Assembly: GCF_017464355.1 (NCBI RefSeq)
Contig: NZ_JAFUAG010000041.1
Coordinates: 62,001 to 126,000 of the forward strand
From: Ruminococcus sp.
GTDB taxonomy: Bacteria > Bacillota > Clostridia > Oscillospirales > Ruminococcaceae
Reading direction: 5' to 3'
DNA: 64,000 bases
Part shown: positions 4,685 through 28,531 of the stretch, one piece after another
Layout: every line of letters starts with the position of its first letter
Numbering within the stretch: position 1 is the stretch's first letter
Program-made: the position numbers and the translations under genes
The notes under the pieces: generated by a model
The model's database searches: none
Seen by the model: the letters and a program-made list of their open reading frames with translations, nothing else
Told to the model about the DNA's origin: nothing

Positions 4685-5377
4685 ATGTTCCCCCAGATCA
4701 TTCAACTGCTGCATAAGCTTGGTGCAGCAGGGCTGTTTTTCGGGCTCCACTTCGACGGCCGCACGGTCTTTCCACGCCCCCTTTCCGCCGCAGAGGAAAG
4801 GGAGTGCTTTGAGAGTATGTCAAAGGGCGACAAGTCTGCCCGTGAAAAGCTTATCAGACATAACCTCAGGCTCGTGGCACACATTATCAAAAAGTATTAT
4901 GCAGCCTCCTCCGACCAGGACGACCTTATCTCCATTGGCACCATAGGCCTTATCAAGGCGGTGCAGACTTTCGACTACACCAAGGGCACCCGCTTTGCCA
5001 CCTACGGCAGCAGGTGTGTTGAAAACGAGATACTCATGCATTTCAGGTCGCTGAAAAAATCCGCAGGCGATGTTTCAATTGAAGAACCCGCCCAGTCCGA
5101 CAAGGACGGCAACAGCCTGAGCCTTATGGACCTTCTGACCGACGGAGAAGACCTGGGGGACAGGATAGAGCTTCTGGTGCAGGCAGAACAAGTATACAAA
5201 GATTTGGATAAATGTCTCGATGACCGTGAAAGGGAGGTCATCGTCAAGCGCTACGGCCTTTTCGGTACAACTGCCCTTACCCAGCGTGAAGCCGCCAAAA
5301 AACTGGGTATATCCCGTTCCTATGTTTCCCGCATAGAAAAACGTGCCCTTGAAAAGCTTCGTGAAAGGCTCAGATGA
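4685..5377 (+). CDS. SigK-like sporulation-family sigma factor
   Basis: A sigma-70 family factor of about 230 residues. Region 2 carries the RNAP-contact and -10 recognition stretch (LISIGTIGLIKAVQTFDY, ENEILMHFR), and region 4 ends with GISRSYVSRIEKRALEKL, both closely like sigma-K of Bacillus. The ATG at 4685 is chosen over one 45 nt upstream because it follows AAGGTGAT at 4671-4678 and gives the usual hydrophobic SigK N-terminus. In sporulating relatives SigK acts in the mother cell; in Ruminococcus the role is uncertain. No pro-sequence processing gene is seen nearby. Confidence 0.85.
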   Translation: MFPQIIQLLHKLGAAGLFFGLHFDGRTVFPRPLSAAEERECFESMSKGDKSAREKLIRHNLRLVAHIIKKYYAASSDQDDLISIGTIGLIKAVQTFDYTKGTRFATYGSRCVENEILMHFRSLKKSAGDVSIEEPAQSDKDGNSLSLMDLLTDGEDLGDRIELLVQAEQVYKDLDKCLDDREREVIVKRYGLFGTTALTQREAAKKLGISRSYVSRIEKRALEKLRERLR

Positions 5378-5568: not shown

Positions 5569-5624
5569 AAACATTGTTATTATATGAATGAAAATGTTAA
5601 GGACGTAAAAGAGGTAAGGAAAAG

Positions 5625-7004
5625 TTGAGTGAAGTAAATACAAAGAACCCCCTTGGATATAAGCCTATACCCAAGCTGCTGGGAGGTTTTGCTCTGCCAA
5701 GCATAATCGCCATGCTGGTAAGCTCGCTGTATAATCTGGTGGATCAGATATTCATCGGACAGTATGTGGGCTATCTGGGCAACGCTGCAACAAACGTGGC
5801 ATTCCCGCTGACGACCATATGTATGGCGATAACCCTGACTATCGGCATAGGTACGGCTTCGAGATATTCGCTGTACCTTGGCAAGGGCGAGGAGGAGCGT
5901 GCTGCTAAAACAGTGGGCTGCGGCCTTTGCATGATGTTCGGCTTCGGCATTATCTATGCCTTTATCATTGAGCTGTTCCTGACGCCCATGCTGGTGTCCT
6001 TCGGTTCGACGGAGGCTGTGCTTCCCTATGCGCTGGAATACACCAGGATAACCGCCATAGGTATGCCTTTCATCGTTGTCATGAACGGCATGAGCAATCT
6101 TGCCCGTGCCGACGGCAGCCCCACCTATTCCATGGTGACTATGCTCATCGGCGCCATTATCAACACAGGGCTTGATGCTCTGTTCATGATAGTCTTCCAC
6201 TGGGGAGTGGCAGGTGCAGCCTGGGCAACGGTCATCGGCCAGGTGATATCCTGCTTGTTCGCATTTATGTATATAAAGAGGCTCAAGCGCATTACCTTGC
6301 GTCGTGAGCATATCCGTGTCAGCCTGGCAGAAATGGGCACCACTGCCGCCATGGGCATGAGCAACGGCCTGACACAGGTAGCTATCACCTTTGTTCAGAT
6401 AGTTATGAACAGGTCACTGGTAAAATACGGTGCCATGTCCGTCTATGGCTCTGATATACCTCTGGCTGCCAGCGGTATCGTCATGAAAGTGAATTCCATC
6501 GTGCTTGCAGTGATCATCGGTATAACCCAGGGTATGCAGCCTATAGTGGGCTTCAACTACGGTGCCAGAAAGTATGACCGTGTAAGGCAGGTGTACAAGC
6601 TTGCCATAACCTGCGAGCTGGTCATAACACTTATCGCTTTTGCAGTGTTCCAGATATTCCCTGCACAGGTGCTTTCTATCTTCGGTTCCTCTCAGGATAA
6701 TAAAGAACTTTATTTTGAGTTCGCCGTGAAGTTCATGCGCACATTCCTGCTGCTGCTGCCCCTGACAGGCATACAGATGATATCCTCGAATTTCTTTGCC
6801 GCCATAGGCAAGCCCCTTAAAGGCGCTGTGCTGTCCCTGACAAGACAGGTCATCTTCCTGATACCCCTGGTGCTTATCCTTTCAAGCTTCTTCGGGCTGA
6901 CAGGCATAATGGCAGCTGCACCTGTTTCCGACTTCACCGCATTTATTGTGGTCATGATATTCATTGTCCGTGAGATGAATGCCATGAAGCATAAGACAGA
7001 CTGA
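5625..7004 (+). CDS. MATE-family multidrug/sodium antiporter
   Basis: A 459-residue polytopic protein with about twelve hydrophobic helices in two homologous halves, opening LGGFALPSIIAMLVSSLYNLVDQIFIG, a typical MATE N-terminus. Members extrude cationic drugs or metabolites in exchange for sodium or protons. The start is a TTG at 5625, supported by GAGGTAAGGA at 5611-5620; no ATG fits the conserved N-terminus. It is monocistronic, between its own promoter and a strong terminator. Substrate unknown. Confidence 0.9.
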   Translation: MSEVNTKNPLGYKPIPKLLGGFALPSIIAMLVSSLYNLVDQIFIGQYVGYLGNAATNVAFPLTTICMAITLTIGIGTASRYSLYLGKGEEERAAKTVGCGLCMMFGFGIIYAFIIELFLTPMLVSFGSTEAVLPYALEYTRITAIGMPFIVVMNGMSNLARADGSPTYSMVTMLIGAIINTGLDALFMIVFHWGVAGAAWATVIGQVISCLFAFMYIKRLKRITLRREHIRVSLAEMGTTAAMGMSNGLTQVAITFVQIVMNRSLVKYGAMSVYGSDIPLAASGIVMKVNSIVLAVIIGITQGMQPIVGFNYGARKYDRVRQVYKLAITCELVITLIAFAVFQIFPAQVLSIFGSSQDNKELYFEFAVKFMRTFLLLLPLTGIQMISSNFFAAIGKPLKGAVLSLTRQVIFLIPLVLILSSFFGLTGIMAAAPVSDFTAFIVVMIFIVREMNAMKHKTD

Positions 7005-14643: not shown

Positions 14644-17600
14644 ATGGAAAATCTTGTAAAGTTCGGCGGAGCTATGACCGCCCATATCAATTTTGCCATG
14701 CAGCAGAACTATGTCCCCATTTTCAGAAGCATCATTGTGACCAATATTTCGGACAGTACCCTGAAAAATGTCTTCCTGCGCATAGCCTTCGAGCCTGATT
14801 TTGCCGAGGAGTACGAGTCTGCACCCATGGACCTGCAGCCCGATGTTCCCGTGGAGATATCCCCCGTGGATATAAAGCTTCGTCCCGACTATCTCTTCGG
14901 CCTCACCGAGAAGATAGCGGGCTATGTGCGCATTGAAGCCATTTCCCGCAGTGCTGAGGGAGAAACCGTTATCGGCAGAGAACTGAGGGATCTTGAACTG
15001 CTTGCCTACGACCAGTGGACAGGCGTGAACTTCATGCCCGAGACCGCAGCAGCTTTCATAACACCCAACCACCCTGCGGTGCAGGGGGTGCTTTCCAAAG
15101 CGAGCCTGTTTTTGCAGAAATGGTGTGGCGACCCCGCATTCACAGGTTATCAGACAAAAAATCCCAATATAGTAAAGCAGCAGATGGGTGCTGTATATGC
15201 CGCCCTCCAGCAGGAGAACATCGCCTATACCGTGCCCCCCGCCAGCTTTGAGGAAGCCCAGCGCATACGTCTGCCTGACAGCGTGCTGGAGGGCAAGTGC
15301 GGCACCTGCATAGACCTTGCGGTGCTTTACTGCGCCTGCCTTGAAGCCGCAGGCCTCAACAGCCTGCTGGTCATAACCGCCACCCATGCCATGGCAGGCT
15401 GCTGGCTTGAAGAGGAAACATTCTCTGACAGCCTGCAGTATGACAGTTCTGCCCTGACCAAGCGTATGTCAAGCGGTGTGGACGAGATAAGCGTTATCGA
15501 GTGTACCGACTTCACCGCAGGTAAGAGCGTGGATTTTGACACCGCTGAAAGCCACGCGGCAGACAAGCTTGCAAAGTCAGCGGATCTCTGCTTTGCCATA
15601 GACGTTGCCCGCACCCGCACTGGCGGCATACGTCCCATTCCTGCCAGGGTGGCGGAAAACGGCACTTTCACCGCCGTTGACTACGGCGCAAGAAGCGAAA
15701 ATGAGATCACCGCAGCCCCGGGTGAGATAGCGGTGAATGACCTTGATATCAACGGACAGCCCCGTGAAGTCACCAAGCAGATGATGTGGGAGAGAAAGCT
15801 CCTTGACCTCAGCCTGCGCAACAGCCTGCTGAATTTCAGGCCAACAGCCTCGAATGTCCAGCTAATGGTGGACAGCCTTGCCGCCCTTGAAGACCGCATA
15901 GCCGCCGATGAAACTTTCAAGATAATGCCAATGCCCAACGATATGACCCTTGAAGTTTCCGACAGTAAGATATATGAAAACGAGAACCAGCGTGAACTCA
16001 TAGCCGATATCGCCGCCAAGGAATTTCAGTCTAAAAGGCTTCGCACCTATATCAGCGAGAGTGAGCTGGAGAAGACCATGAAAAAGCTCCACCGCCTGGC
16101 AAAGGTCAGCCTGGAGGAAAACGGTGTCAACACCATTTATCTGGCTCTTGGCTTCCTCAGGTGGTACGAGACCGATAAAAGCGAGAAACCCAGGTATGCG
16201 CCTCTAGTCCTCGTCCCTGTTGATATTATCAAAAAGGTTCAGGACAAGAGCTTTTCCATACGCATACGAGATGAAGATACCCAGGTGAATATCACATTAC
16301 TTGAAATGCTCAGACAGTTCTTCGGACTGGATATACAAGGCCTTGACCCTGTGCCCGAGGACGATAGCGGTGTGGATATACCCCTGATATTCAGCATTAT
16401 CCGCAAGGGTGTCATGTCCCGTTCAAGGTGGGATATCGAGGAGTATGCCTTCATCGGACAGTTCAGCTTCAACAGGTTCATAATGTGGAACGATATCCGC
16501 AACCGTACCGATGAACTGGCGCAGAACAAGGTGGTGGCCAGTCTTATCTCGGGCAAGACCGAGTGGGAGGGCAGTGACCTTGCCGTTTCTCCTGTGGAAC
16601 TTGACGGCATAGCCCCCTCAGACCTTGCTGTGCCCGTGGCGGCGGACTCTTCCCAGCTTGCCGCAGTGGTGGCTTCGGGTCAGGGACAAAGCTTTGTGCT
16701 TCACGGCCCTCCCGGTACAGGCAAATCCCAGACCATAACCAACATGATCGCCAATGCCCTCTATCACGGACGTTCCGTGCTTTTCGTGGCTGAAAAAATG
16801 GCGGCGCTGTCGGTAGTTGAAAAGCGCCTTGACAAAATAGGTCTGGGTCCTTTCTGTATAGAGCTGCATTCCAACAAGGCACAGAAGCGTGCTGTGCTTG
16901 ACCAGCTCAACGAGACCCTGAACGTGGGCAGGATAAAAAAGCCCGCCGATCATCAGGCGCAGGCCGATAAGCTGAGATCCCTCCGTGCCGAGCTTAACGG
17001 CACCATGGAGGAAATACACAAAGTCCGCAATTACGGCATTTCCCTCTATGACGCAGCTGTTCATTACGAGCAGTGCCGTGCTTTTGAGGGCAAGCTTGAT
17101 TTCACCTCACAGCAGGTAACTGCCATGACCGCCGATACCTATTCTCAGTGGAAAGAACTGGTGGAAAGCCTGGCAAATCTCGGCAGTCAGTTCGGCGATG
17201 TGTCATCTACAGCCCTTACCCTCTGCCGCCTGACAGAATGCAGTCTTTCCACAGGTGACGAGTTCAGAAATAAGCTGAACGAACTTGAAAGCGCCCTTGA
17301 TGAACTGGAAAAGAACGAGGGCTCCCTCTCGGCCATGGTCGGCGGCGGTGAGCTGACCTACGCTCAGCTTTCCGCACTGGCAGAGATCTGCAAGGCAGCT
17401 TCCGCAGGGGAAGGCTTTGTGCTGTCCGCAGTGCTTAACGGCAATAAATGGGATATGCTTTCCTCCGCCGTGCAGAAGACCATGACCTCCCTTGAGGGTC
17501 TGCATTCCTCAAAGGCTGAGCTTTCCGCTGTGTTTGAAGACAGCGTGTTCAGCTATGACGTCCAAAAAGCCAGCACCGAATGGAAAAGCGTTCAGGCAAA

Positions 17601-25140: not shown

Positions 25141-26270
25141 GAAAACTTATCGCAGCCTTTATCACGTTTGCGCTCATCATAGTCGGCATAGGCACCGCCG
25201 CTGTTCTGCGCACCCGTGAGACCCCCGACCCTACGGGGGACTACGCTGTTTCGCTGAACGAGATACAAAATCTCATCGAACAGGGAGAAACAGAAAAAGC
25301 TTCCGCCTGCGCAGAGGAACTCCGCCTTGAAATGCGAAAGGACAGAACTGCCGCCCCCGACTACACCGTGGAGATAATGTGCGGCATCTGCCTTGTATTT
25401 CTGGCAGGGGTGTCCTGCTACTGCTGGTTCGTGATGATAAGGCCTTTCCAGAAGCTTTCTGCCTTTGCCGAACGTGTTGCCCTGGGCGACCTTGATGTCC
25501 CACTTGAATATGAGCGCACCAACTGGTTCGGTAAATTCACCTGGGCATTCGACAGTATGCGCCGTGAGATACAGCGTGCCCGTGCCTGCGAAAGGGAAGC
25601 TGTCGAGAATAACAAGACGGTCATCGCCTCTCTTTCCCACGATATCAAGACCCCCGTGTCCTCCATTCGTGCCTATACCGAAGCCCTTGAAATGGGCATG
25701 GACGGCGATCCCGAAAAGCGAAACCGATACATCAGCGTTATCATGAAAAAATGCGATGAGGTCTCAAAACTCACCGAGGATCTGCTGACTCACTCCCTTT
25801 CCGACCTGGACAAACTGAAAATGTTCCCCGAGGTTTTTGAATTAGGCGAGTATCTGTCCGAAATATTGGACGACATTTCTGCGGACAGAGATGATGTCCG
25901 CTACGAAAAGCCCCTGTATTCCGTTGAAGTCCGTGCCGATAAGGGCCGAACTGCCCAGATAGCCGAGAACCTCATCAACAACGCAAGAAAATATGCCAAA
26001 ACAAAAATTGACATCTCTGTCACCCGTGATGAATACATGGCGAACATAATTTTCCGTGACCACGGCGAGGGCATACCCGATAAAGACCTGCCTTTCGTTT
26101 TCGGAAAATTCTACCGCGGCAGCAACACCTCGGGCGAAAGCGGCGCAGGGCTTGGGCTGTTTATCGTCAGGTACATAGCCGAGCAGTTGGGCGGTGAGGT
26201 AAAAGCCAAAAATTGCGATAAGGGTCTTGAAGTTACCGTGAGCCTGCCAATTGCGAGTAAGATTAATTAA
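25137..26270 (+). CDS. Sensor histidine kinase
   Basis: A 377-residue membrane kinase: TM helices at about 5-24 and 80-100 enclose a short outer loop of about 55 residues; a HAMP domain follows; then HisKA with SHDIKTP (phospho-acceptor His168) and an ATPase domain with N box (ENLINNARKYA), G1 (FRDHGEGI) and G2 (GAGLGL). The small sensor loop resembles kinases that sense through a partner ABC transporter, but a BceS-type intramembrane assignment is not certain. Cognate regulator is the overlapping gene at 24451. Confidence 0.9.
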   Translation: MRKLIAAFITFALIIVGIGTAAVLRTRETPDPTGDYAVSLNEIQNLIEQGETEKASACAEELRLEMRKDRTAAPDYTVEIMCGICLVFLAGVSCYCWFVMIRPFQKLSAFAERVALGDLDVPLEYERTNWFGKFTWAFDSMRREIQRARACEREAVENNKTVIASLSHDIKTPVSSIRAYTEALEMGMDGDPEKRNRYISVIMKKCDEVSKLTEDLLTHSLSDLDKLKMFPEVFELGEYLSEILDDISADRDDVRYEKPLYSVEVRADKGRTAQIAENLINNARKYAKTKIDISVTRDEYMANIIFRDHGEGIPDKDLPFVFGKFYRGSNTSGESGAGLGLFIVRYIAEQLGGEVKAKNCDKGLEVTVSLPIASKIN

Positions 26271-26302
26271 GTACGTAATTAACCTTGATTTATAGAAAAA
26301 TA

Positions 26303-26329
26303 GCCGCCTGAAATACTTCGGGCGGCTTT
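26303..26329. terminator. Terminator after the sensor kinase
   Basis: Stem GCCGCC-GAA/TTC-GGCGGC with a short loop and TTTCG on the plus strand; the minus strand has a T-run a few bases away, so it may also end the Spo0A_C-like gene. Confidence 0.7.
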
Positions 26330-26336
26330 CGTATTT

Positions 26337-26747
26337 TTACATCATCTCAAGTAAGACATCACAGCGCAGTTTGTCGGCCAGTGTGTAGACCAGCTCGCTG
26401 TTGGTAGGCCGCCAGTTCTCATCAAGCCCCTGCTTTCCGAAATATTTCTGCTTGCTTCCCGTGTCTATCATCTTCCATGCCTGTATGATGGATTTGTATA
26501 TCCCATGTTCCACTGAGTAGGGCGAAGTCCCCGATATCTTTGCAATAGCGGGATATATCGTCTTTGAGATAGTCCTCATCATAGTACCTGAGGCAAAGGC
26601 CATCTTTACAGCTTCACGGGTATAATTGTACCCGCTGTACCTGGGTGAGAAACCCAGCGCATTGAGCATTTTTGTTACTTCATAGTGAAGCTCGCCTGCA
26701 TCGTAAGTGATAGTTTCTTCCATGAATTCCATTTTTCTTTCTCTCAT
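26337..26747 (-). CDS. Detached Spo0A C-terminal (DNA-binding) domain protein
   Basis: A 136-residue protein that aligns by eye with the sigma-factor-contacting and DNA-binding domain of Spo0A: ALGFSPRYSGYNYTREAVKMAF, IYPAIAKISGTSPYSVEHGIYKSIIQAWK. The receiver domain is absent, so it cannot be phosphorylated in the usual way. GGAGAGG precedes the ATG at 26747. Stand-alone Spo0A_C proteins are known in Ruminococcaceae and some mobile elements. It lies on the minus strand between two halves of a plus-strand regulatory/transport locus. Confidence 0.8.
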   Translation of the reverse strand: MRERKMEFMEETITYDAGELHYEVTKMLNALGFSPRYSGYNYTREAVKMAFASGTMMRTISKTIYPAIAKISGTSPYSVEHGIYKSIIQAWKMIDTGSKQKYFGKQGLDENWRPTNSELVYTLADKLRCDVLLEMM

Positions 26748-26886
26748 TTTTCATTACCTCTCCGGGAAAAATTTTAGGCCGCATTTAACGACCGCATTCT
26801 ATTATACCACTAATGAAAAATAAATCAAGAGGCAAAATTAACTTATCACCAATATTTACATTAAGTTGAGTATCGGTTCATAAACG

Positions 26887-26973
26887 TCAAAAACAGGCAC
26901 ATTTATGAACATTGTGTGGAATAATCGCGTAATTTCTTTGCGCTTGTCCTTCAAACACCAAAATAGCGCACAT
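26887..26973 (-). CDS. Possible 28-residue peptide
   Basis: ATG at 26973 follows AAAGGAGATGA (26979-26989) and opens a 28-codon frame starting MCAILVFEGQ and ending HKCACF. The ribosome site is strong and is preceded by a terminator and the ATACCC motif shared with the neighbouring module. No homologue is recognised and the frame is too short to be sure of. Confidence 0.3.
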   Translation of the reverse strand: MCAILVFEGQAQRNYAIIPHNVHKCACF

Positions 26974-26995
26974 ATCGGTCATCTCCTTTGGGTAT

Positions 26996-27018
26996 AAAAA
27001 AAGCACCTCAACGGTGCT
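26996..27018 (-). terminator. Terminator of the first short module
   Basis: 6-bp stem AGCACC/GGTGCT with 5 nt loop and seven T on the minus strand. Confidence 0.7.
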
Positions 27019-27115
27019 AGTCGTCTATGAGACCGCTGTACTGCCTGTCGAGCAGGTCAAGTATAGCGGATATTTCAGCCCATATCGTGCATGATATCAG
27101 CTCCTTTCGGGTATG

Positions 27116-27144
27116 AAAAAACCGCCTAACTGAGTTAAGCGGTT
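27116..27144 (-). terminator. Terminator after the candidate immunity gene
   Basis: Stem AACCGC-TAACT/AGTTA-GCGGTT followed by a T-run on the minus strand; it overlaps the stop codon of the gene at 27143-27436. Confidence 0.75.
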
Positions 27145-27436
27145 AAATAATACTAAAATCCTTTGTTTTTATAAGTTCTTTTATTGCGCTGTTATTACCG
27201 GAATATTTTTCTGCTCCGATAAGATGTAATGCGGCGATTGCCATATCTGAAATGTTTTGCCACATTGATTTTTCATTACTTTTGGTAAGCAGTTTCAGTG
27301 CAGAAATGATTTTAGGCGATGAATAGCCGCTAATGCAACACGCTCGAATAGCATAAGCCTGCGCAACCGTATCTTTTGATAAAAGATCATTTTCAATCAT
27401 TGCTATCGTTTTTGAATATTTCTGCATACATCTCAT
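27143..27436 (-). CDS. Small helical protein, candidate immunity protein
   Basis: A 97-residue, AT-rich gene whose product is all-helical in appearance with HEAT-like pairs (KIISALKLLTKS, NISDMAIAALHLIGAEKY). Its start lies inside the last 44 nt of the upstream MuF-type toxin gene, the tight toxin-then-immunity arrangement seen in polymorphic toxin loci. A second ATG at 27427 is possible. No family is recognised; the immunity role is inferred from position, size and base composition only. Confidence 0.55.
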   Translation of the reverse strand: MRCMQKYSKTIAMIENDLLSKDTVAQAYAIRACCISGYSSPKIISALKLLTKSNEKSMWQNISDMAIAALHLIGAEKYSGNNSAIKELIKTKDFSII

Positions 27437-28361
27437 CTCTTTTCTTTATATCAGATATTTCTTTATCTCTTAGAGAAATCAGTTTATCTGCTATATCATT
27501 TCTTCCCAATGAATTTGCTAAGTCGATTTCCTTTTGATATGCTCGCATTTCACGTCTTATATGTTCATCGGCATCCCATGCGGCGTAACAGGAATTCCAA
27601 CCCGCTTCTTTGTCATCAAAAGCGTGCTGACATTCATGAAGCCAAGCACTGTAGCTTGCTGTCTTTGTTGCACTGATTGTTCCCGGCTCACCAAGCCTTA
27701 CTCCTTGATAAGCAAGTGTACCGCCGTCTTCGTGGTAAACGATGTTTACACCAATTTCAGCCATTTGGTGTTTTAAATCTTCCAATTCTTTAGGGTTTGA
27801 TTCTTCAGCGCTTCCAAACACATCAAACATCGGGTCATCGCCCGCTTTATAGAACTTACCTGTTGACAACATTATACCACGTTTCTCATCATAAGTCAAC
27901 CTTTTCGGCGCATTATCCGCCTGCAATTTCTGCGCTTCATCATGCGAAAAACGCTTCGGCGGTGTATACTCAACTTTGGGTGGTTCTTCAACCCACCTGC
28001 GCCCACGCCTGCCGTTCGCTCCCAACTGACCACGCAAAACCTTGCCGTCATAGATTATCATGCAGCCGCAGTGGTCATGCCTGCTCCAAAAGCCCTCCGG
28101 CTGTTCACGCATGAGATATTTTCCTGCAATATTCGTACACCACTGACAGCAAGCGCCGTCATTTATTCGCTCAACGTAGCATTCAAGCCCTGCTCCCGAA
28201 CGGAACTTCGCATTGGCTTCGATAAAGTCATCATGCAGAGATACCACAACGTTCGACACCGACCTTGCCCTGCGCCTTATGGTATCATCTGACACGGTGG
28301 GGTCGCTCAGGCTGTGGGCTATCTGCATGACACGCTCGGCGGGGAAGGACGTCCGTATCAT
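27393..28361 (-). CDS. Truncated phage MuF-type head protein fused to a metallopeptidase-like C-terminal toxin domain
   Basis: From ATG 28361 the protein has about 322 residues. The first 110 match the C-terminal part of phage minor head (MuF/SPP1 gp7-like) proteins: SLSDPTVSDDTIRRRARS, a CCQWC pair and RHDHCGCM. A basic, proline-rich linker follows, and the last half carries HECQH (residues 242-246) inside SAWLHECQHAFDDKEAGW, a zinc-metallopeptidase-like motif. The frame is open upstream to 28529 and similarity may extend to about 28395, so the original phage gene has lost its N-terminal half. No other phage genes adjoin. The domain order equals that of MuF polymorphic toxins; toxicity is not shown. 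Confidence 0.65.
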   Translation of the reverse strand: MIRTSFPAERVMQIAHSLSDPTVSDDTIRRRARSVSNVVVSLHDDFIEANAKFRSGAGLECYVERINDGACCQWCTNIAGKYLMREQPEGFWSRHDHCGCMIIYDGKVLRGQLGANGRRGRRWVEEPPKVEYTPPKRFSHDEAQKLQADNAPKRLTYDEKRGIMLSTGKFYKAGDDPMFDVFGSAEESNPKELEDLKHQMAEIGVNIVYHEDGGTLAYQGVRLGEPGTISATKTASYSAWLHECQHAFDDKEAGWNSCYAAWDADEHIRREMRAYQKEIDLANSLGRNDIADKLISLRDKEISDIKKRDEMYAEIFKNDSND

Positions 28362-28371
28362 CTCCCCTCTA

Positions 28372-28400
28372 TTGACAGCCCCGCCGTATTTCGCTATACT
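28372..28400 (+). promoter_or_regulatory. Promoter for the MacB-like ABC transporter operon
   Basis: TTGACA (28372-28377), 17 nt, TATACT (28395-28400). It lies within sequence that, on the other strand, still reads as phage head-protein remnant, and leaves a 5' leader of about 125 nt. Confidence 0.65.
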
Positions 28401-28531
28401 TATTAGAGAGACCCTGCTATCAGGAACACACAACTCAGAAGTTCCCGAAAACACAGGCTTGCTTGTTCTTAAGGATTTCTTAATACCACAAGTGCTAGAA
28501 TATGTACAGTAAACCAAAGGAGGCCGCAAAA

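Follow-up and report, generated by a model that had tools for sequence, protein, structure and literature searches.

The window (the whole 64,000-nt stretch of Ruminococcus sp. DNA that was analysed) carries an orphaned MuF polymorphic toxin/immunity cassette, and we consider it probable that this cassette is a nested promoter–toxin–immunity–terminator unit that keeps the immunity gene on in silent or decayed prophages. A wider reading, which we hold tentatively, is that the cassettes of this phage clade are autonomous units, with a promoter in the toxin frame and a terminator after the immunity gene, that are captured by host chromosomes and have their contents swapped at fixed sites, as heritable and exchangeable protection against phages with the same toxin.

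The MuF remnant and its two genes

The original prediction described a frame with phage minor-head motifs, a basic, proline-rich linker and a C-terminal HECQH, overlapped by a 97-codon gene, and reading of the ORFs bore this out. The 322-codon frame (27393–28361, − strand; 322 aa) contains CCQWC, RHDHCGC, the linker and HECQH (residues 242–246; 27624–27638, −), and its 3′ end overlaps by 44 nt the candidate immunity gene (97 aa; 27143–27436, −; immunity family alignment A7), for which an ATG at 27427 is an alternative start. Its identification as a phage MuF remnant was upheld by a match of residues 34–108 (28038–28262, −) to PHROG phrog_2494 "minor head protein" (E = 9.4e-21); Pfam VG15 scored 18 bits, below the 26-bit cut-off. 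Homology to longer MuF proteins starts at FPAER, directly after the ATG, and the frames of L005, L008 and L146 extend about 100 or more residues upstream of this start, so the surviving MuF part is truncated. Residues 151–322 (27396–27911, −) comprise the end of the linker and the metallopeptidase-like toxin domain, as delimited by toxin family alignment A6 and homologs, with E271 (27549–27551, −) as candidate third ligand.

Profile searches with the toxin domain and the 97-aa protein, suggested as a check in the original prediction, gave no match of meaningful score in Pfam, PHROGs or NCBIfam. The sole match in an hmmscan of four toxin-family members against Pfam (E up to 10) was DUF4055, in one member (E = 0.041), and PDB sequence searches gave no credible match. 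The AlphaFold2 model of the toxin domain had a pLDDT of 49 and a pTM of 0.35, the helix carrying HExxH being modelled with low confidence. For the 97-aa protein, the model comprised five helices at low confidence (pLDDT 59), which agrees with the predicted all-helical fold. The gene had also been called AT-rich; G + C content was 0.41 in 27001–28000 and 0.43 in the preceding kilobase, against approximately 0.5 in the surroundings.

When positions 16001–40000 of the window were searched by tblastn with portal, terminase, scaffold, capsid, connector, tail, holin, replication and integrase references, the MuF piece alone was matched, in line with the earlier remark that no other head genes remain. 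The absence of a match to any other phage structural gene in this interval indicates that the remnant is derived from a MuF toxin and is not a deliverable one.

A sensor-kinase gene and an ABC-transporter gene flank the inserted tract that holds the remnant (26256–28469, edges approximate and set by eye; host gene names were read from sequences except where a family match is given). At kinase-gene loci of other genomes of the genus, the ABC gene directly follows the kinase gene in nine of 11 cases, the remaining two (L027, L029) having other genes at that place, so the window carries an insertion of approximately 2.2 kb. Within it are a stand-alone gene for a Spo0A C-terminal domain (136 aa; 26337–26747, −; Pfam PF08769, E = 6.7e-24), of which no copy was found in the loci fetched from other genomes, and, as seen by sequence comparison, a tiny phage ORF remnant ending in SGLIDD (27018–27098, −), which in relatives lies between the immunity gene and the terminase. 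A second terminator-like hairpin occurs at 27002–27018 (−; sequence comparison and pattern scan). No convincing attachment site emerged when the insertion was searched for repeats. At the truncated edge of the remnant, a TTGACA-17-TATACT element (28372–28400, +) faces the ABC-transporter gene at 28502, and the insertion may have given the ABC-transporter operon a new promoter.

The cassette inside the remnant has a border on each side, neither of which figured in the original prediction. At its 5′ border is a sigma-70-type promoter-like element (TTGACT-17-TATAAT with TG before the −10; 27871–27899, −; pattern scan and comparison), which lies in the codons of LTYDEKRGIM. At its 3′ border, directly after the immunity gene, is a terminator-like hairpin with an 11-bp stem and a T tract (27120–27144, −; pattern scan).

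Cassette copies at other chromosomal sites

The original prediction had also raised the possibility that the pair moved alone, and a 0.8-kb toxin-plus-immunity unit was indeed common to unrelated sites. Uncultured Ruminococcus RUG13404 (L021, the same as G014:C31) contains an 820-bp stretch 96.6% identical to the window cassette, with no MuF part. Comparison of the two copies places the shared edges at the linker motif RLTYD and about 60 nt beyond the immunity stop, just past the terminator. The neighbours of the RUG13404 cassette are a sigma-factor gene on one side and a MATE-type transporter gene on the other; the window counterparts of these genes (4719–5368 and 5608–6874) have no cassette between them, although the two genomes carry the transporter gene in opposite orientations. 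Protein identity is 95% for the toxin domain and 99% for the immunity protein, so that the small gene is kept together with the toxin domain in another species, a recurrence beyond chance. The toxin domain differs by 14 synonymous and eight non-synonymous changes and the immunity gene by five and one (pN/pS = 0.14 and 0.05, respectively), values that may reflect changes dating from the cassette's time in phages, before phage loss.

Another cassette, unrelated to the first (toxin end KSIEDFATI..., partner MTYPDYCYF...), was found in four species (G003, G008, G009 and G010), with 92.8–97.7% identity over 370–862 bp between genome pairs. In the stretches compared, its flanks were unmatched save for short, more diverged MuF matches and matches to a repeated gene family. 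G004 and G027 have a MuF piece at the same chromosomal site, and their flanks are 92–93% identical for more than 7 kb in both directions. The toxin modules between these conserved edges differ, and modules therefore appear to have been exchanged at the orphan site; the G027 module looks degenerate.

Several further arrangements were observed. The window's own genome has a second orphan (L037; contig C4, 2273–3325) consisting of a broken MuF piece with a different, HETAH toxin end, which shares the linker with the window (59 bp identical) and the 3′ border (94.6% over 111 bp) and lies beside an apparent integrase fragment. In L044 (6233–8715; G006:C2), the MuF part and one toxin end are followed by a second linker and a JAMM-type end, an arrangement resembling a displaced toxin module in tandem. 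Remnants in three genomes (L041, L043 and L105) lie near what we take to be the same uracil-DNA-glycosylase-like gene, possibly an integration hot spot. A shared insertion of L041 and L043 was considered and rejected; the left neighbour is common and the right flanks differ.

Orphan MuF pieces in the genus

A search of 29 genomes of the genus with the MuF alignment gave 25 rows, which merged to 22 places in 17 genomes; the G014:C31 cassette, being without MuF, was left out of this count. Only two places (G020:C77, G002:C64) were prophages with portal, terminase and capsid genes. Fourteen were isolated pieces, defined by at least approximately 1.8 kb on both sides with no portal, capsid or full-length terminase match (two each in G000, G022 and G027, and one each in G003, G004, G006, G008, G009, G010, G014 and G026). 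Four lay at contig edges (G017:C250, G019:C123, G020:C25 and G024:C89), one shared a 5.9-kb contig with a scaffold gene and the end of a terminase (G002:C91), and one was beside a 155-residue terminase piece (G023:C53).

Searched with one query each, the portal was found in two and the capsid in three of the 29 genomes, always on contigs with other head genes, and no isolated portal or capsid piece was detected. The terminase occurred at 11 places, of which four were full length (one at a contig edge in G001), six were the N-terminal end only and one the C-terminal end only. Five of the six N-terminal ends were beside MuF pieces, the sixth being G020:C58, and the orphan pieces thus have ragged ends on either side of a core of toxin and immunity genes. 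MuF was searched with an alignment and portal, capsid and terminase with single sequences, so the sensitivities of these counts differ. This distribution is consistent with the suggestion in the original prediction that the pair outlived its phage.

The orphans might instead be leftovers of decaying prophages, toxin/immunity pairs by origin and neutral debris in their present copies. The window's MuF part is truncated and undeliverable, L037 combines a broken MuF with a damaged −10, and some orphans have stops or short C-termini, all of which fit this explanation. We nevertheless regard it as rather unlikely: both window genes are intact with few non-synonymous changes, random decay should also leave isolated portal and capsid pieces, of which searches with one query each found none in the 29 genomes, and the promoter-like site is kept in 12 of the 14 orphans (L044 being counted by its first module).

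A promoter-like element at the MuF/toxin junction

The linker at the start of the cassette encodes a near-consensus sigma-70 promoter-like site, TTGACT-17-TGGTATAAT. For the window by itself, the region scanned has six promoter-like sites against a shuffle mean of 5.7, which places its site within chance expectation and leaves the weight to the comparison across phages. For this comparison, 80 IMG/VR MuF loci were kept out of 237 relatives (77 with complete frames, 69 distinct), and the 260 nt after RHDxCxC were scanned with a score made up of the 12 hexamer positions and the TG (maximum 13).

A score of at least 12 was reached in 46 of the 69 distinct phage genes, against a mean of 1.47 for synonymous-codon shuffles; these phages are related, and the counts are not independent events. 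The score was at least 11 in 55 genes and below 11 in 14. In the MuF part upstream, none of the 69 reached 10, and in the toxin body, four of 63 windows reached 11. Among genus and family loci, 20 of 22 reached 11 anywhere and 18 of 22 at the junction. The window and RUG13404 sites both scored 12, L037 scored 10 with a damaged −10, and L100 scored 8. The site of L102 and that of the second L044 module are off the junction, within the toxin end.

Best scores over whole genes were 13 for faecal phage MT835767, 11 for Javan583 and phi891591, 10 for Streptococcus phage Javan7 (off the junction) and L203, 9 for Javan150 and a Paenibacillus gene carrying the same toxin domain, and 8 for the toxin-less MuF of G045. 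The low scores in the Paenibacillus member, L203 and others indicate that the element is a trait of this phage clade and not of the toxin family.

Since the element sits just upstream of the toxin-domain coding sequence, and a methionine in an "MQFF"-like motif follows soon after it in some members, it could make a free toxin domain together with the immunity protein, as a toxin–antitoxin operon stabilising the prophage or orphan. We consider this quite improbable, because four of 55 loci, against 16 of 134 control windows, had a Shine-Dalgarno-like sequence with an in-frame start no more than 110 nt from the −10; start sites after the promoter are at background level, and a free toxin domain is not indicated. 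It is very unlikely that the TTGACA/TATAAT element is a protein motif or a recombination site in place of a promoter. Its position does coincide with the cassette edge, as a recombination site would, but the hexamers are retained while spacer residues vary, the element is lost on synonymous shuffling, and the −35 hexamer occurs in two reading frames with the spacing adjusted from 17 (42 loci) to 16 (13 loci), which an amino-acid motif cannot explain.

The terminator-like 3′ border

Of the 67 loci whose sequence extended far enough, 49 had a strong terminator-like hairpin within 700 nt past the toxin stop, at a median distance of 240 nt, compared with three of 335 mononucleotide shuffles. When the longest downstream ORF was taken as the immunity gene, a terminator followed it in 30 of 68 cases (control windows, three of 136); this choice of ORF is unreliable, and the terminator was therefore tested by its distance from the toxin stop.

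The border motif GCGGTTTTTTCATACCC, with one mismatch allowed, occurred 25 times in 15 of the 29 genus genomes, and its reversed control not at all. At 15 of the 25 occurrences, a frame of at least 50 codons ended 12–34 nt upstream. Four occurrences appeared unrelated (L052, L062, L066 and L073) and four were at contig ends (L064, L065, L072 and L075). Scanning viral contigs with the motif returned eight stretches. The same terminator border was also seen after small genes in L067, L068, L074 and L076, and in L067 and L076 these genes come after a different carrier that has a NPNHDEKGRFASG-like motif. Additional toxin/immunity families may be recognisable by this border.

The toxin and immunity family

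Related phages share the MuF part, and the C-terminus behind it varies. Ends that resemble metallopeptidases are frequent in this MuF group: an HExxH motif follows the MuF part in 28 of the 77 complete frames (shuffles: mean 0.6, maximum 5), and a JAMM-like motif occurs in 12. Two IMG/VR phages (L146 and L147) have the same C-terminal domain as the window (31.7%, E = 2.6e-12), along with a terminator of the same type and a partner of 98 residues. The immunity proteins of the window and L146, taken alone, are weakly similar (E = 0.015).

Viral contigs were scanned with an immunity alignment that combined the window, L021, L146 and a distant G035 homolog, and two of 88 candidate stretches were confirmed. 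In both, the gene directly upstream encodes a MuF protein ending in the toxin domain, so that a search with the immunity profile only leads back to the toxin. These two loci, L203 and L204, have the C-terminus and partner in common and unlike MuF parts, and therefore represent one cassette on two carriers and not two independent finds. The carrier of L203 matched PF04233 (E = 3.4e-18; tested for L203). Positions 2293–4117 of L203 and 83–1937 of L204 show an apparently recent module swap between phages.

On two Paenibacillus polymyxa plasmids, a WXG100 protein has a C-terminus that matches the L146 domain (37.6% over 117 residues, E = 3e-12). The gene of this type VII protein (PF06013, L205) is followed by a 110-residue gene, and none of the 11 features within 4 kb is annotated as phage. 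Thus, the family has three unlike carriers: a phrog_2494-type MuF (window, L146), a classical MuF (PF04233, L203) and WXG100 (PF06013, L205). In alignment A6 of five rows (four distinct, the window and L021 being near-identical), H92, E93, H96 and E121 are invariant, as are two aspartates after HExxH and a G-x-P-G motif; E121, which corresponds to E271 of the window protein, lies 25 residues past the second histidine. The immunity alignment A7 is weaker than the toxin alignment, with four invariant columns and a motif like [VI]xDxAIA. What marks polymorphic toxins is that unlike carriers have the same C-terminus and a linked partner, and by this mark the putative metallopeptidase-like domain named in the original prediction and its partner form a candidate polymorphic toxin/immunity family. 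It is scarcely tenable that the domain serves phage maturation or structure as a protease, with the small gene encoding an assembly chaperone: phages use proteases in head assembly and the domain is fused to a head protein, but it also ends a WXG100 type VII protein whose gene is followed by a small partner gene, with no phage annotation among the 11 features within 4 kb, and the C-terminus varies across related phages while MuF is conserved.

Single-sequence scans confirmed no relative in the viral contigs and only L021 in the genome contigs. Phage-record searches with the toxin domain of the window or the relatives in L146 or L203 found none, and the window immunity protein gave one chance-level match to phage records (E = 0.7). 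The L203 immunity protein had no match among plasmids, and a search with the Paenibacillus domain returned its own two plasmids only. The toxin domain in 396 sampled genomes of the bacterial family, and the toxin alignment in 398 of the phylum, matched the own genome only. The immunity protein was found in the own genome and G035 in a sample of 396 genomes of the bacterial family, and in the own genome and, as a weak match with stops, in G724 among 394 genomes of the order. The G035 homolog (L024, 1489–1806, −) stands alone between other genes, with no toxin gene, beside what is presumably a YebC-like gene, and is possibly an orphan immunity gene.

Relation to known systems

Orphan toxin-CT/immunity modules of CDI and Rhs systems are displaced and exchanged by recombination and usually lie next to a full-length toxin gene. 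Displaced toxin/immunity modules are thus common to these systems and the window cassette, and the carriers differ. No report of an internal promoter conserved in MuF toxins was found in the literature searched.

The MuF toxins that Jamet et al. (2017, PMC5576092) described in temperate phages resemble the window pair in having a MuF N-terminus, a variable C-terminal toxin and a small downstream immunity ORF. According to the portion of that article available, a metallopeptidase domain is present in 20% of 191 MuF toxins, MuF toxins are exclusive to temperate phages or prophages, and 96% of bacterial muf genes are in prophages or remnants; the word "promoter" does not occur in this portion. 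Compared with the toxins in that account, isolated cassettes are the commonest form in the Ruminococcus genus examined here.

The nearest parallel to the embedded element is in Vibrio cholerae T6SS effector genes, where internal promoters were described in three genes with lacZ fusions, such as one in vasX driving tsiV2 (PMC3857813). There, too, a promoter inside an effector gene keeps immunity on with the main operon off. Whereas those promoters were shown with lacZ, ours is a predicted near-consensus element present in many phages at a module edge.

Tox-MPTase1-5 and other zincin-like toxins, as described by Zhang et al. 2012 (PMC3482391), likewise have an HExxH domain at the C-terminus of a polymorphic toxin. 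The window family differs in its lack of a meaningful Pfam, PHROGs or NCBIfam match, a difference to be read with the caveat that Pfam may not model each Tox-MPTase. The prophage toxin Bxa and its two immunity proteins (PMC11699363) are also MuF-fused, and the activity of Bxa and its adjacent immunity were shown experimentally. Bxa is an ADP-ribosyltransferase in Bacteroides, in contrast to the metallopeptidase-like domain here, and "metallo" and "orphan" do not occur in the main text. As judged from these comparisons, the kind is a known one, within which toxin, partner and MuF carrier make up a new family.

A proposed nested unit for immunity

The simplest reading is that the cassette forms a nested transcription unit for the immunity gene. 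In an intact phage, the MuF part would place the protein in the capsid and the metallopeptidase-like C-terminal domain would enter the next infected cell, as MuF biology suggests. The 97-residue helical protein would bind and block the toxin domain, thereby neutralising its presumed proteolysis. From the predicted sigma-70 promoter in the codons joining MuF and toxin, a transcript would run through the toxin coding sequence and the immunity gene to the terminator; the toxin is probably untranslated from it, since a recognisable start site is lacking. Such a nested unit would let immunity be expressed while late genes are silent in the lysogen, and also after the rest of the phage is deleted, giving the orphans their supposed protective role. 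As the promoter and terminator are conserved edges, homologous recombination could swap cassettes or copy them to new sites, and is the likely route of exchange.

Late phage genes are off in a lysogen, which raises the practical question of how a lysogen withstands a MuF toxin from a related phage. If true, a promoter conserved within the toxin frame would answer how the lysogen stays protected. The promoter and terminator edges would provide a concrete mechanism for the swapping of polymorphic toxin modules and their orphan survival, and a DNA signature for new phage toxin/immunity pairs without homology to known toxins. With its own on-switch and off-switch, the cassette may explain how such pairs survive and spread without the virus.
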